In this document: positions 6,421-27,721 of the stretch, piece by piece
Layout of the letters: the number at the start of each line of letters is the position of its first letter
How positions within the stretch are numbered: the first letter of the stretch is position 1
Origin: Deltaproteobacteria bacterium
Lineage (GTDB): Bacteria > Desulfobacterota > Desulfobacteria > Desulfobacterales > C00003060
Reading direction: 5' to 3'
Assembly: GCA_003647275.1 (NCBI GenBank)
Contig: QMMN01000017.1
Coordinates: forward strand, 1 to 42,546
DNA length: 42,546 nt
Translations under genes and position numbers: made by a program
The notes under the pieces: generated by a model
What the model was told of the DNA's origin: nothing
Databases searched by the model: none
Seen by the model: the letters and a program-made list of their open reading frames with translations, nothing else

Positions 6421-7416
6421 TCATTTGCCATTTTCTATAAGAAATCTCTCGATCTTGGCTTTTTTCTTCAAGCCTTCAATGTACGAAGTAAGCTGCTTTT
6501 GTATCTTTTCCTGAGTTAGATATTCTTCAAGCCTGTCCCTGACGACCTCAAAAGGGATCATCGATTGAGGTTTTTTGTCCTCAACCTTAATCAAGTGGTA
6601 TCCAAATCTCGTCTCAACGATCCCGCTCACCTGACCCGGTTTTGAAGCAAAGGCCGCCTCCTCAAACGCCCTGACCATCTGTCCCCGAGCAAAATAGCCC
6701 AGATCTCCGCCCCTTACACTGCTGGGACATTCAGAAAACTCCTTTGCAAGGCCTGAAAAGTCAGCACCTGCCTTGAGCTTTTCCTCGATCTTTTCAATCT
6801 TCTTGCGAGCTTCGGCTTTCTTTGATTCCCCAGCATTGGGATCCACCTTGATCAAGATATGGCTAGCCCGCACCTGCTCAGGCTCCTTGAAAAAATTTGC
6901 GTTTCCATCATAATATTCCCTGATTTCCTTGTCAGAAACCGTCACTTTCTGAGCGATCTCCTCGTCGACCAATTGCTGTGTAGCCATCTCACGTCTGATC
7001 TGAAACTTCATGGAATCCTCAGACAGATTCATCTTTCTCAGAAGATCTCTATATTCACCTTCTTTTGGGAACCGTTTCTTCAGTGCTTTGATGCGCTCGT
7101 CTAAAGAGGCCTCATCAACCTGGATCCCCTTGTTTTTGCTCTCTTGATAAAGGAGCTCGAGGTCGACCAAGTCTTCTAGGGCTTTCTTTTTCATATTTGA
7201 CAGCTGAGACTCGTTAAGCAGCATACCCCACCTGCGAAGCCGCTGCTGCAAAAAACCCATCTGCCTGTCAAGATCCACACGGGTGATCACGGCTCCGTTA
7301 ACAACGGCCACTTTTCCTTCTGAAGGTTGCTTTTCTTCCGCCCATGCCGGGACATGCACAACCCCTCCAGCAAGGAACAATAACAACCACAACCATATGC
7401 TACGCTTTAGCTGCAT
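6421..7416 (-). CDS. SurA/PrsA-like periplasmic parvulin peptidyl-prolyl isomerase
   Basis: A signal peptide (MQLKRSIWLWLLLFLAGGVV, likely cut after AWA near residue 26) is followed by a SurA_N-type helical chaperone region (residues ~35-170) with the entry motif KVAVVNGAVITRVDLDRQ. A parvulin PPIase domain spans ~180-280 (VRASHILIKVD, GGDLGYFARGQMV, GYHLIKVEDK). The C-terminal helix re-packs on the N-domain in relatives. The role is outer-membrane or exported protein folding in the periplasm. The start at 7416 has GGAAAGGGGAAG upstream. At 331 residues it has one rotamase domain, whereas E. coli SurA has two. Confidence 0.9.
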   Translation of the reverse strand: MQLKRSIWLWLLLFLAGGVVHVPAWAEEKQPSEGKVAVVNGAVITRVDLDRQMGFLQQRLRRWGMLLNESQLSNMKKKALEDLVDLELLYQESKNKGIQVDEASLDERIKALKKRFPKEGEYRDLLRKMNLSEDSMKFQIRREMATQQLVDEEIAQKVTVSDKEIREYYDGNANFFKEPEQVRASHILIKVDPNAGESKKAEARKKIEKIEEKLKAGADFSGLAKEFSECPSSVRGGDLGYFARGQMVRAFEEAAFASKPGQVSGIVETRFGYHLIKVEDKKPQSMIPFEVVRDRLEEYLTQEKIQKQLTSYIEGLKKKAKIERFLIENGK

Positions 7417-7627: not shown

Positions 7628-8059
7628 TCAGCCGTCCCTAGAACTGAGGGAGACGAGCTCCAAATCGTAGATGACGGTACGCCCAGCCAAAGGGTGGTTG
7701 GCATCCAAAATGGCAAAGTCCTCGTTCAGTTCACTCACCCATACCAAGAAGGTTTGGCTTCCGGTGCCAGCTTTGAACTGATGGCCCACCTCCACGTTGG
7801 GAGGGAGTATGTTTCGCGGCACCCGGTGTTGCAAACCAGGCCGGTACTGTCCAAACGCGTCCTCAGGCGCCACCACAACCGTTTTTGATTCCCCGGGCGC
7901 CATCCCAATGACAGCTTTGCTAAACCCCATAACCACCTCACTTCCACCTGCAATGAATTCCAGGGGCGGCCCACCTCGGGAACTGTCAAAAACAGTGCCG
8001 TCTTCCACTCTGGCTGTGTAATGAACCCTAACCATATCACCACTCTTTGCCTGCACCAT
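7628..8059 (-). CDS. SlyD-like FKBP-type peptidyl-prolyl isomerase (second copy)
   Basis: This is a paralog of the FKBP at 5854-6282, opening MVQAKSGDMVRVHYTARVED and closing with LDANHPLAGRTVIYDLELVS. The IF insert is present (QYRPGLQHRVPRNILPPNVE) but diverged, so the two copies may prefer different clients. The ATG at 8059 has AAAGGAG 8 nt upstream; the longer frame to 8125 reads through the csp terminator and is unlikely. Csp lies 110 nt upstream on the same strand, separated by a terminator, so the FKBP probably has its own promoter or lives on read-through. Confidence 0.9.
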   Translation of the reverse strand: MVQAKSGDMVRVHYTARVEDGTVFDSSRGGPPLEFIAGGSEVVMGFSKAVIGMAPGESKTVVVAPEDAFGQYRPGLQHRVPRNILPPNVEVGHQFKAGTGSQTFLVWVSELNEDFAILDANHPLAGRTVIYDLELVSLSSRDG

Positions 8060-8108
8060 TCTTTTCTCCTTTCTGATGCTCAAGTGGTGCCCTTGATGAC
8101 TTCTCCAA

Positions 8109-8147
8109 ACAAAAGGGCATCTCACCTTAGCCCGACGAGATGCCCTT
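8109..8147 (-). terminator. Intrinsic terminator downstream of csp
   Basis: A perfect 11-bp inverted repeat, AAGGGCATCTC (8113-8123) and GAGATGCCCTT (8137-8147), flanks a 13-nt loop. On the minus strand the stem runs into TTTTG, giving a short U-tract about 20 nt after the csp stop codon. Confidence 0.8.
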
Positions 8148-8368: not shown

Positions 8369-9006
8369 AGCGCTTATCCTCCTTCCTTTTTCTTTCGTAC
8401 AGCTTTTCAGGCGTTACTTTGGAAGGAGCCACAAGAATCGCATCGCTAAGGCAAAAGGCGGAATTGAAGTGGGTTCCAAAATACGGATCCTGATTTCCGT
8501 ACTCGATCCGGTTCCTTCACATGATCAAGGATCCATGGGAAGGCGACATACACATGGACCGATTTTTTTAAGATAGATCAGCTATGGTTATGTGTCAATG
8601 AAAACTTCACAGTGCGTTAAAGGTAATATCTATTTAGGGTCGGACCTCAGCAGGATTCTGAAATTCTAACAAAAATGCTTCAGAAGGAAGCGTATTTTGG
8701 CCTTAGAAGTCCTTTTTTGACCCCAAAAAGGGGCCCCTAAAAAAAAGCACACTATCTTTTAAAGCAACAATTTTACCCCTAAAAATGGTGTTTTAAGGGT
8801 TGATAACACCTATTTTGTGGATGTTTGCCCTGAAATAACAACAGGATAGCTTGGTCTGACCCCAAATTGACAATTGACCAATAGCTGGGCCGCTCCAAAC
8901 ACCAATCAGAGTTTTGTGCAAGTTTCATGCAAATGAATGATAGAATTGTAGATGAAAAAACGATTGACTCAAGAAGCGGTTTGGTTTATGATTATAAATA
9001 GGGAGA
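8369..9006. other. Gene-free stretch upstream of csp
   Basis: No open frame with coding character is visible on either strand. The stretch includes AT-rich runs and short C/G-blocks (for example around 8710-8790), and it probably holds the csp promoter reading left. It is otherwise unexplained. Confidence 0.5.
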
Positions 9007-9097
9007 TTGAAGTTCCCTGCAGCCCGCAAAGCACTGCTGTCAGGCAGAACCTGCGGGGGCAGCGTTAGCTCTCCTGTGGAGAATGCGCTCGCTCAAT
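9007..9097. repeat. Mosaic palindromic repeat: type S plus REP-like core
   Basis: The left part TTGAAGTTCCCTGCAGC is the type S end seen at 4800. It is joined to the REP-like core GCAAAGCACTGCTGTCAGGC (from 9026), which contains the hairpin CTGCTGTCAGGCAG, and then to GCGGGGGCAGC, which can pair with GCAGCCCGC on the left. It ends with AATGCGCTCGCT. The same core occurs at 12527-12554, 27677-27703 and 38833-38859. Confidence 0.65.
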
Positions 9098-9113
9098 ATA
9101 CACAATGAGATCT

Positions 9114-9300
9114 TTGCACAACCCCTTTGAGCGGTCATTATGAACTTTTTGGGGTACCCATCCGGGCGAAGTGAACGGCCCACGCCAGTGGGCAAATCCT
9201 AAACTGTTTGAGGCCCTGGGGCCGAGTTTTTAGGATTTAGTGAGCAAGCCCGTAGATGGGTCAAAAAGTTCATGTAAATAAGTGAAAAGGGGTTTTGCAA
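9114..9300. repeat. Nested palindromic element, copy A
   Basis: Concentric inverted repeats are visible: TTGCA/TGCAA ends with AACCCCTTT/AAAGGGGTT, then TGAACTTTTT (9141-9150) with AAAAAGTTCA (9263-9272), then ACCCATC with GATGGGT, and an innermost hairpin AAATCCTAAA/TTTAGGATTT around the core CTGTTTGAGG…CCGAGTTTTT. The core is shared with copy B at 31764-31950, whose arms have a different sequence that is still self-complementary. It sits 26 nt upstream of the ilv leader peptide. Confidence 0.75.
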
Positions 9301-9326
9301 GGGGCTATGTAGTATATTCTGTGATC

Positions 9327-9437
9327 ATGATTTCGTTCGGTGCAAACATCGTAGCTTTTTTATCCCTCAGCCTTGCTGTCGTTGTAGTGGTAGTAGGTGT
9401 GGCTGCGTATTGCCTTGCGCCGGAGGGAACAATGTAA
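9327..9437 (+). CDS. ilv leader peptide, 36 residues, Val-rich
   Basis: The 36-codon frame starts ATG ATT TCG and encodes MISFGANIVAFLSLSLAV…, with six consecutive Val codons (GTC GTT GTA GTG GTA GTA, 9378-9395) followed by Gly-Val, and ends at TAA 9435-9437. It is rich in Val, Leu and Ile, the end products of the pathway of the gene downstream. This matches the logic and even the look of the E. coli ilvB leader, which also has runs of Val codons. No strong ribosome-binding site is seen, so its translation rate is uncertain. Its role would be to sense charged tRNA-Val: ribosome stalling at the Val run would expose the antiterminator segment at 9414-9427. Confidence 0.85.
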   Translation: MISFGANIVAFLSLSLAVVVVVVGVAAYCLAPEGTM

Positions 9438-9480
9438 GTTAAAAACCACATCAGAGAATTTCAACCCCCGCCGGCGCAAG
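9414..9480 (+). promoter_or_regulatory. Antiterminator pairing of the ilv attenuator
   Basis: CTTGCGCCGG at 9414-9423, inside the leader frame 18 nt after the Val run, is perfectly complementary to CCGGCGCAAG at 9471-9480. The duplex extends by three more G-C pairs after one mismatch (9425-9427 with 9467-9469). The second strand is the 5' arm and loop of the terminator at 9465-9490, so the two structures exclude each other. A ribosome stalled on Val codons frees the first strand; one reaching the stop codon covers it. Confidence 0.85.
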
Positions 9481-9497
9481 CCGACGGGGGTTTTTTT
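9465..9497 (+). terminator. Rho-independent terminator (attenuator) before ilvB
   Basis: The arms CCCCCGCCGGC (9465-9475) and GCCGACGGGGG (9480-9490) form a stem with one C-A mismatch closed by the tetraloop GCAA, followed by seven T residues (9491-9497). It lies 61 nt before the ilvB start, between leader peptide and gene, so it acts as an attenuator rather than an end-of-operon terminator. Confidence 0.9.
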
Positions 9498-9558
9498 GTT
9501 TTGGGGCTTTCTACAAAAGACTGCAAGCATCAAGAACAGAAACAAAAGGAGGACCATC

Positions 9559-11232
9559 ATGAAATGCAGTGGAGCAGAAATTATCGTGAAGTTGCTGGAA
9601 AGGCAGGGGATAGAGACAATTTCCGGCATTCCCGGCGGCGCCAACTTGCCAATTTACGATGCGTTACGTGACAGCCGAATTCATCATGTGTTGGCACGTC
9701 ATGAACAAGGAGCAAGCTTTATCGCCCAAGGAATGGCGCGAAGCACAGGACGGGTCGCAGTCTGTTTCGGAACGTCAGGGCCGGGAGCCACCAACCTTCT
9801 TACGGCTATTGCGGACGCCAAATTGGACTCGATCCCGATTATCGCCATCACGGGCCAGGTTCCAACTTCCCTGATTGGCACGGACGCTTTTCAGGAAGTT
9901 GACACATACGGTCTGACTCTCCCGATTACCAAGCATAACTTTCTGGTCCAGCGCGCAAGAGAGTTGTTCGAGGTCCTACCGGGATCATTCAAAATCGCTG
10001 GGTCAGGGCGACCCGGCCCGGTGGTGATTGATATCCCCAAGGATATTCAGACTGAGACAGTCGAGTTTGAGAGGTGGCCGGAACCATGGAAGCCCAAGCC
10101 CCAGGCTTCCTGTGACCCAGGAGATATTGAGCGCATCGCCAACATGATTCATGAGGCCAAACGCCCTGTTATCTGTATCGGTGGAGGAATCATTGCTTCT
10201 GGATGCTCAGAAGCCTTGATCGAAATGGCAAAAAAGAATTCAATCCCGGTTACTTCAACGCTGATGGGATTGGGGTGCTTTCCGCCTGATGACCCCCTTT
10301 TCTTGGGAATGGTCGGAATGCACGGTGCGCGGTATACAAACTATATTCTGGAAGAGGCTGACCTGCTCCTGGCATTTGGTGTGCGCTTTGATGACCGGGC
10401 CACTGGTAATGTGCGGGAATTCTGTAAGCATGCCTCGATTATTCATATTGATATTGATCATTCCGAGATCGATAAAATCAAGGCGTCGAATCTCTCGATG
10501 GTGTGCGACGTGGGGTCGGTCCTGCAAAACCTGGTTCCTGAAATTAAGGCTGACAGACGTTTGGACTGGAATTCACGTGTGGCCTGGCTGAAGGCTGAAT
10601 ATCCTGCTGTCTCACCCGCAACCGATAGTTTGCTGCACCCCGTGAACCTTCTATCGCAAGTTAGTAAACGGGTGGAACCTGACACGATTATCACCACCGA
10701 TGTCGGGCAGCATCAAATGTGGGTTGCTCAGACCTATCCGTTCCGCTATCCGCGCACTTTTTTGACCTCCGGCGGCTTGGGAACAATGGGTTTTGGCGTT
10801 CCTGTCGCTATTGGTGCGGCATTGGCAAATCCAGACCGTAAGGTGGTCTGCATTAGCGGTGATGGTTCTTTTTTGATGAACATCCAGGAGCTGGCGACAA
10901 TGGCGGAACAAAATCTGAACATAACGATCATCATTATGAACAACAATCACCTGGGGCTGGTTCGCCAGCAACAGGAGCTATTCTACAACAAACGGATCTA
11001 CGCTGTGAAATTCGATTCAAGTCCTGATTTTGCAGCTGTCGCAGAAGGATTCGGTGTTTCAGCGTATGATTTGAAAAGGAGTCGGGATCCGGTTAAGACA
11101 CTATCCCTGGCATTATCCGCGCCAGGACCGAGCGTTGTCAATGCGCCAATTGACGTTCATGCAAACGTGTACCCGATGGTGCCGCCAGGCGCTGCAAATC
11201 GAGAAATGATAGGAGGTGAAGCCCATGCCTAA
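9559..11232 (+). CDS. ilvB: Acetolactate synthase large subunit
   Basis: The 557-residue protein is a thiamin-diphosphate enzyme with the three AHAS domains: PYR (residues 1-170, catalytic Glu49 in ARHEQGASF), FAD/central (190-330), and PP (360-540) with GDGSFLMNIQEL and the NN ending the ThDP/Mg motif. QVPTSLIGTDAFQE is typical of AHAS. It condenses two pyruvates, or pyruvate with 2-ketobutyrate, at the start of Val/Leu/Ile synthesis. The ATG at 9559 follows AAAAGGAGG. It is preceded by a leader/attenuator and overlaps by 8 nt the start of a decayed ilvN, so its regulatory subunit must be encoded elsewhere or be missing. Confidence 0.93.
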   Translation: MKCSGAEIIVKLLERQGIETISGIPGGANLPIYDALRDSRIHHVLARHEQGASFIAQGMARSTGRVAVCFGTSGPGATNLLTAIADAKLDSIPIIAITGQVPTSLIGTDAFQEVDTYGLTLPITKHNFLVQRARELFEVLPGSFKIAGSGRPGPVVIDIPKDIQTETVEFERWPEPWKPKPQASCDPGDIERIANMIHEAKRPVICIGGGIIASGCSEALIEMAKKNSIPVTSTLMGLGCFPPDDPLFLGMVGMHGARYTNYILEEADLLLAFGVRFDDRATGNVREFCKHASIIHIDIDHSEIDKIKASNLSMVCDVGSVLQNLVPEIKADRRLDWNSRVAWLKAEYPAVSPATDSLLHPVNLLSQVSKRVEPDTIITTDVGQHQMWVAQTYPFRYPRTFLTSGGLGTMGFGVPVAIGAALANPDRKVVCISGDGSFLMNIQELATMAEQNLNITIIIMNNNHLGLVRQQQELFYNKRIYAVKFDSSPDFAAVAEGFGVSAYDLKRSRDPVKTLSLALSAPGPSVVNAPIDVHANVYPMVPPGAANREMIGGEAHA

Positions 11233-11499
11233 TTCGATTATTGAATTGAAAGTTCGTAATCATCCAGGCGTCATACGGTGCTGAAAAAACACCGGGCGCC
11301 AGGCATTCATTCGTGGAAAATCCGTCACCCGCAGGATGTTGAGCCAATCACCATAATCGCAAGGGCACGAAACAAGCATGTTTCATGTGGTCGTGGCCGA
11401 GGCAAGGATTCTAATACAATTGCTTAGCCAAAGCGGAGGTTGCGGCTTATCCAGGACGCTATGCAACATGAATTCAAGGAGGTAAAGAATGCAGGTTAA
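11225..11499 (+). pseudogene. ilvN: Decayed acetolactate synthase small subunit (ilvN)
   Basis: The ATG at 11225 overlaps the ilvB stop and reads MPNSIIELKVRNHPGVI, the ACT-domain start of an IlvN/IlvH regulatory subunit, but hits TGA after 19 codons. Reading on in a second frame gives VLKKH, then IRHPQDVEPITIIARARNKH, and in a third frame FHVVVAEARILIQLLSQSGG. A further shift gives RLIQDAMQHEFKEVKN before TAA at 11497-11499. These are recognisable IlvN segments in order, so at least three frame changes, and probably an internal deletion of the GLFSRRAFN-type region, have destroyed it. Sequencing error cannot explain a missing segment. Confidence 0.75.
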
Positions 11500-12504: not shown

Positions 12505-12610
12505 AGCGAGCGCTAACCCCACAGCCCGCGAAGCACTGCCGTCAGGCAGAACCTAGGAGGAATGCGCTCGCTATTGCGGTTCAACGGGGCTTGCTGCAGG
12601 GAGCTTCAAT
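12505..12610. repeat. Mosaic palindromic repeat: REP-like core within AGCGAGCGC arms
   Basis: Arms AGCGAGCGC (12505-12513) and GCGCTCGCT (12564-12572) enclose the REP-like core GCGAAGCACTGCCGTCAGGC with the hairpin CTGCCGTCAGGCAG. To the right, TTGCTGCAGGGAGCTTCAA matches the type S end at 4800 in inverted orientation. The flanking 12365-12504 and 12611-12731 hold no gene. Confidence 0.65.
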
Positions 12611-27670: not shown

Positions 27671-27721
27671 CCGGACGCGAAGCACTGCCGTCAGGCAGAA
27701 CCCCCGCCCGGAAGGGCGGGG
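27671..27721 (+). repeat. REP-like double-hairpin repeat, copy 3
   Basis: The 51-bp unit runs CCGGACGCGAAGCACTGCCG then TCAGGCAG, AACC and the hairpin CCCGCCC-GGAA-GGGCGGG. It contains two stems, CTGCC/GGCAG and CCCGCCC/GGGCGGG (GNRA-type loop). It differs from the inverted copy at 38815-38865 at only three positions. It lies 47 nt beyond the stop codon of the radical SAM gene that reads toward it. Confidence 0.75.

Follow-up and report, generated by a model that had tools for sequence, protein, structure and literature searches.

A predicted valine-codon attenuator of the ivbL type in front of an AHAS I-type ilvB gene with a broken ilvN

The closest described counterpart of the device analyzed here is the ivbL leader of the ilvBN operon from Escherichia coli, for which one study reports that ribosomes lingering at the ivbL stop codon raise attenuation (PMC5373646). 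AHAS I has already been published from Desulfovibrio (PMC5727371). Our literature search for attenuation or a leader peptide of ilvB in Deltaproteobacteria found no papers. PMC2965389, which describes a second terminator in tandem in rimP leaders, contains no mention of ilv, Desulfo, Geobacter, deltaproteobacteria or delta-proteobacteria. Two attenuators in one leader are known from the mgtCBR operon of Salmonella, which reads two different signals, has stem-loops unlike intrinsic terminators, and is described by its authors as a singular case of such a leader responding to different signals (PMC3641672).

We analyzed a stretch of 42,546 bases from a Deltaproteobacteria bacterium (the window), in which an open ilvB gene encodes an AHAS I-type large subunit of 557 residues (9559–11232). 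All positions refer to the window, and all features lie on the + strand unless stated otherwise. Very probably, the device in front of ilvB is a transcription attenuator that works through the ribosome, as in E. coli ivbL-ilvB, and is mainly specific for valine, as predicted from its sequence, pairings, conservation, and folding behavior; stalling, termination, and a valine response would presumably follow in the organism. As an ivbL-type Val attenuator, the device is of an ordinary kind; less ordinary is its setting, in which the promoter has probably been displaced and ilvN is dead.

The leader and its exclusive pairings

The ivbL-like leader ORF comprises 36 codons (9327–9437, translation MISFGANIVAFLSLSLAVVVVVVGVAAYCLAPEGTM), beginning with an ATG at 9327 and ending with the TAA stop codon at 9435–9437. 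We found no clear Shine-Dalgarno-like stretch in the sequence close before 9327. The leader translation contains six Val codons in a row (9378–9395), the putative stall site, and this run of six is unique in the six frames of the window. GTA accounts for half of the eight Val codons of the leader vs. 12% of all Val codons counted across 21 ORFs in the window. The sequence CTTGCGCCGG (9414–9423) follows 18 nt after the Val run and belongs to segment 2 (9414–9427), the presumed 5′ strand of the antiterminator, located within the leader ORF. Its complement CCGGCGCAAG (9471–9480) resides inside the terminator hairpin, where segment 3 (9467–9480) represents both the 3′ strand of the antiterminator and part of the 5′ arm and loop of the terminator. 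The extended antiterminator pairing between 9414–9427 and 9467–9480 includes 13 of 14 positions with one mismatch. The intrinsic terminator (9463–9497) is composed of a hairpin (9463–9492, about −23.6 kcal/mol) and a tract of seven T (9491–9497), 61 nt away from the ilvB ATG at 9559. Segment 1 (9336–9345) pairs with 9415–9424 in the ribosome-free fold. A preliminary description of this DNA had listed the 36-codon leader with its six Val codons, which translation reproduced to the base, as well as CTTGCGCCGG with its distance from the run, the perfect complement in the hairpin, the seven T, and the spacing to ilvB, all of which we found as described.

In the predicted mechanism, a shortage of Val-tRNA would stall the ribosome on 9378–9395 and leave segment 2 free, which could then capture segment 3 once transcribed and let the polymerase pass into ilvB. 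With plentiful Val-tRNA, the ribosome would reach the stop codon and cover segment 2, allowing hairpin 9463–9492 to form and transcription to end at the T tract.

The folding computations are in line with such a switch. The fold of 9327–9500 has an energy of −61.3 vs. −48.4 ± 4.1 for 200 dinucleotide shuffles, none of which was as low. The antiterminator (−24.9 kcal/mol) was not equaled by any of 500 mononucleotide shuffles (z −5.0), and the pairing between segments 1 and 2 is also good (z −2.9). Folding both exclusive structures, as the preliminary description had proposed, bore out the alternative: with segment 2 free and the RNA ending just past segment 3, 12.0 antiterminator pairs are expected, whereas the complete terminator gives 11.5 terminator pairs at equilibrium, even with segment 2 free. 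Masking the RNA through the stop codon leaves the terminator as the sole possible structure. Because the terminator wins at equilibrium even when segment 2 is free, the switch must be kinetic. The same script applied to the E. coli row L043 yielded 10.1 antiterminator and then 10.8 terminator pairs, which is the same switch as in the window. Among the hallmarks of a ribosome-mediated attenuator, a leader with a codon run, a terminator before the first structural gene, an exclusive antiterminator, and conservation are seen for the window. The geometry of ribosome-stalling attenuation by valine, suggested earlier for this locus, agrees with the anatomy, with the conservation among relatives, and with the E. 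coli-like folding in the same computation.

The pattern scan for terminators in the window did not give hairpin 9463–9492 among its + strand sites, and the number of terminator-like sites it reported was not above that of shuffles (5 vs. 5.3). The scan also reported a weak terminator-like stem at 9338–9351 inside the leader, followed by TAGCTTTTTT.

Upstream repeats, ilvB, and the loss of ilvN

An inverted-repeat element of about 200 bp resembling a MITE (9107–9306), the ends of which were defined by aligned copies, stops 20 nt before the leader ATG. Its inverted repeats read TTGCACAACCCCTTT / AAAGGGGTTTTGCAA. The genome contains at least 23 stretches matching the element, including fragments and the window copy, with 36 of 52 candidates scored, and the best other copy among the matches listed is 97% identical. 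The element also occurs in 8 of 13 other genomes searched from the same genus; at least 46 matching stretches were found in one genus member and at least 44 in G026, which belongs to another family. A second dispersed repeat (9006–9093) has three other copies of 79–88 nt with 92–95% identity and many shorter pieces in the genome, amounting to 39 matching stretches, mostly short, including 12522–12554 and 27676–27702 in the window.

Upstream of both repeats lies a promoter-like site (8964–8992), TTGACT-17-TATGAT, matching at 10 of 12 positions. Its −35 element is located 363 nt before the leader ATG, or 75 nt if both repeats are subtracted, which falls within the TTGAC distances (55–92 nt) of the leaders L114–L117. 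The site may be the original promoter of the leader, with the repeats having been inserted later. Since the 4-kb region contains 8 promoter-like sites vs. 5.1 ± 2.5 in shuffles, the site is weak by itself. Within 150 nt upstream of the window leader, we found no TTGAC and a best site of 8/12; the MITE-like repeat fills this stretch. Among relatives, 30 of the 47 modules have a TTGAC no more than 150 nt ahead of the leader, but 7 of 8 enterics, E. coli among them, likewise lack it, so that its absence in the window is no proof against a promoter. On the upstream side, the first genes that have Pfam matches (6421–7416 and 7628–8125) are on the other strand.

The ilvB gene itself belongs to the AHAS I clade, which consists of 44 rows with a support of 100/99 and includes the E. 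coli row L043, presumably AHAS I as judged from its IvbL-like leader. The IlvB from the window shares 55.5% identity with that of E. coli, and the nearest group is L126/L127 (95/82). An acquisition of the gene from enterics was considered and is not supported, as IlvB groups with L126/L127, with the deeper order unresolved in the tree. Contamination of the MAG was rejected: a UvrD gene carried by this contig shares 84% identity with its counterparts in same-genus genomes, and the repeat family occurs in 8 of the 13 genomes of the genus that were searched for it. Two full-length ilvB genes are present in the genome, along with two weak partial matches. The second one, on C28, is 46% identical to that of the window and is followed by an intact small-subunit gene. 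No ilvB of the window type was found in the 21 other genus genomes searched, where at E ≤ 1e-100 17 genomes have one match each of the second (C28) kind with 45–49% identity and 4 have none.

Behind ilvB, an ilvN pseudogene (11225–11485) matches over 17 codons and then runs into stops, without any open match thereafter, confirming the earlier impression that ilvN is destroyed. Against a profile of eleven IlvNs, the window matches positions 2–18 of 91 only, and the adjacent single-ACT small subunit that marks AHAS I (ilvBN) is represented in the window by this pseudogene. Among the 44 AHAS I-type loci with enough DNA (L046, which has no downstream DNA, is outside this count), 34 have ilvN within 1.5 kb, and intact ilvN is missing in 10 including the window, the other nine being L126, L127, L134, L137, L138, L139, L047, L049, and L051. 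The distribution of ilvN requires at least five state changes, of either direction, on the tree, and the nearest rows of the window, L126 and L127, are among the loci without ilvN.

A genome-wide search found no match at the level of a true ilvN in six genomes (G701, G584, G479, G517, G656, and G764, carrying L126, L127, L134, L137, L138, and L139). Their best matches scored between 1.3e-13 and 9.7e-17 in open frames of 164–262 codons, whereas true ilvN genes reached 1.1e-33 to 9.2e-41 in the five genomes used as controls. We read these weak matches as the long IlvH type, like the C28 gene of G000 (1.3e-17). Longer branches in the lineages without ilvN were also considered, but the medians of 1.27 vs. 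1.03 belong to overlapping distributions, and we make no such claim.

These observations bear on a first alternative, namely that the device is a fossil, a once-functional attenuator cut from its promoter by the repeat in an operon that is decaying after ilvN has gone. The repeat ending 20 nt before the leader ATG, the second repeat upstream of it, the broken ilvN, and the lack of this gene type in the 21 genus genomes searched would all fit such a history. However, ilvB is open and matches 104 of 106 positions invariant in the other rows, which themselves deviate at 0–6 positions (L132, with one in-frame stop, was excluded from this comparison), and its root-to-tip path is the shortest of the clade. 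A decay of ilvB was rejected on the grounds of its 557 open codons, the two deviations, and an unchanged rate. The leader and both pairings are also intact, and the promoter-like site at 8964–8992 persists. We therefore consider a fossil rather unlikely, and a ribosome-mediated attenuator remains the preferred reading. This device would belong to the ilvB lineage of AHAS I and predate the repeat now upstream of it.

A Val-rich leader is kept in 10 of the 10 loci without intact ilvN (L126 and L049 have four Val in eight codons, and L051 has no T run). Relatives without ilvN keeping the Val leader lend comparative support to attenuation as the remaining valine feedback. In the window, attenuation may accordingly be the main valine feedback left on the ilvB locus, as the preliminary description had it, although the second ilvB with its intact small-subunit gene, the repeat just upstream of the leader, and the unchanged rate of ilvB qualify this view. 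Whether codon-sensing attenuation can replace allosteric feedback once the regulatory subunit is lost is a question that these loci make testable.

Val leaders in AHAS I-type loci

We compared 45 AHAS I-type loci, 44 of which are in the tree (L046, being partial, was left out). A module was defined as a frame with at least three Val in eight codons followed by a hairpin with at least four T, the antiterminator being no criterion. Modules were returned by 43 of the 45 loci, and by 42 once L037 was dropped; 47 modules occur in these 42 loci, five of which have two (L037 and a spurious third module of L119 were removed before counting). In L037, from Fusibacter paucivorans, a T-box-like GGTACCGCG and a terminator replace the Val leader of an AHAS I-type ilvB. 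L132 and L051 gave no module due to the lack of a run of four T after the hairpin; inspection by eye shows the Val leader and a GC hairpin in both. The leaders of L140–L143 have three Val only.

A Val-rich leader with a terminator in 42 of the 45 loci, including E. coli, means that the device is not special to the genome of the window, and a comparison with relatives, which had been suggested as a check, came out in its favor. The complementary segment, which had also been expected in relatives, was recovered in part: the antiterminator beats 95% of shuffles (matched by ≤25 of 500) in 33 of the 47 modules and does not in 14. The distance from the leader stop to the terminator is 21–32 nt in 38 of 41 non-identical modules (25 nt in the window) and 35, 40, and 49 nt in the rest, after six modules that duplicated others in segment 2 and arm had been collapsed (47 to 41) for the spacing and swap tests. 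When arms were swapped among loci, treated without correction for relatedness, none of 20,000 permutations reached the observed pairing sum. The own arm of the window ranks 9 of 41 in this test, which is not telling by itself because a core is common to all loci. We looked for a general stem between segments 1 and 2 across the 47 modules and found none. In the folding test, the antiterminator of L115 hardly forms (0.1 pairs); in both modules of L118 and in the first ones of L120 and L121, the antiterminator persists even with a complete terminator.

The occurrence of the full device in Desulfobacterota had been regarded as notable, which is not supported: at least 8 genomes besides its own in the class sample (389, own included) have an AHAS I-type ilvB, and in all 8 of these, among the matches listed, it is preceded by a Val leader and a terminator. 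The order sample (389, own included) gave the same ≥8 genomes and the phylum sample (395, own included) at least 19 besides its own, with at most 3 candidates scored per genome in all three samples. The window thereby adds one more case of a well-understood regulator that goes with AHAS I-type ilvB across phyla.

As a contrast set, we used other ilvB loci scoring ≥300 bits with 250 nt upstream. In 15 of these 92 rows, a terminator accompanies a leader that is rich in V or in I/L/V. L122, one of the 15, is the window's own neighborhood, and six of the leaders share an ending that is presumably that of the ilvGMEDA leader. Also among the 15, with ilvB genes outside the AHAS I set and a terminator at a like spacing, are L093 (a Fibrobacteres MAG), which has a Val run, and L028, L030, and L031 from the order of the window, which have I/L/V-rich leaders.

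A second alternative is a multivalent device sensing valine together with leucine or isoleucine. Besides Val, the branched-chain codons of the leader include four Leu and two Ile, and the E. coli ilvB leader responds to Val and Leu. However, Val alone forms a run, positioned 18 nt before segment 2, and the runs in relatives are also of Val, in a count that covered Val codons. Joint sensing thus appears improbable, and we retain the mainly valine-specific attenuator. It is very improbable that an ordinary terminator merely follows a chance reading frame without regulation, given the unique Val run, the shuffle tests, and the steady geometry in relatives. A T-box or another tRNA- or ligand-binding leader, for which the T-box-like leader of L037 provides a precedent, is scarcely credible here, as the window gave no Rfam match at gathering thresholds anywhere, searches up to E of 10 returning sub-threshold matches only.

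Tandem modules and comparison with described systems

In five loci (L118–L121 and L137), ilvB is preceded by two consecutive Val leader-terminator modules. L118–L121 come from four of six searched genomes of genus g109, the other two having no match at E ≤ 1e-175, and L137 comes from the single genome, out of 24 in its family, that gave such a match. In all five, a TTGAC lies within 150 nt of the first leader and none before the second. Some of the tandem pairings are modest, with z of −0.3 to −1.3 for the first modules of L119–L121 and −0.7 for the second of L137. Our literature search, covering open-licence papers, brought up no amino-acid attenuators arranged in tandem for the same signal.

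Taken with the distribution of ilvN, the sequences leave room for a tentative, possible but not favored, reading, in which valine feedback might have moved from the enzyme to the transcript, IlvN having been lost repeatedly while the Val leader was kept, and the window being caught in mid-loss. Attenuators in series in one genus and one further genome, both reading valine, would then require two read-throughs and might steepen the response. We hold this the less probable because, at equilibrium, the antiterminator persists in the first modules of L118, L120, and L121, and because the pairing in several tandem modules does not exceed that of shuffles. The double-Val leaders of L118–L121 and L137 would be a natural system in which to see whether a pair of like attenuators gives a sharper response.

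Like the tandem attenuators of Salmonella mgtCBR, and unlike the window, these five loci carry two successive leader ORFs on a single leader RNA. They differ from mgtCBR in that Val codons abound in both leaders and an intrinsic terminator belongs to each of them.

The ilvGMEDA leader ilvL (L065 and L107) resembles that of the window in its branched-chain codons and in a terminator at a like spacing; however, it contains a mixture of Ile, Val, and Leu and is associated with another ilvB clade. The AHAS I-type leaders from the same order (L114–L117) share with the window the leader, the terminator, and the single module, whereas they have a TTGAC 55–92 nt before the leader and an intact ilvN. 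The ivbL-ilvBN operon of E. coli has an AHAS I-type ilvB, a leader with a Val run, the segment 2/3 logic and spacing, and a terminator starting with AACCCCGCCGGCGCAA, all as in the window, which in turn differs from E. coli in the rest of the leader peptide, the broken ilvN, and the repeat just upstream.
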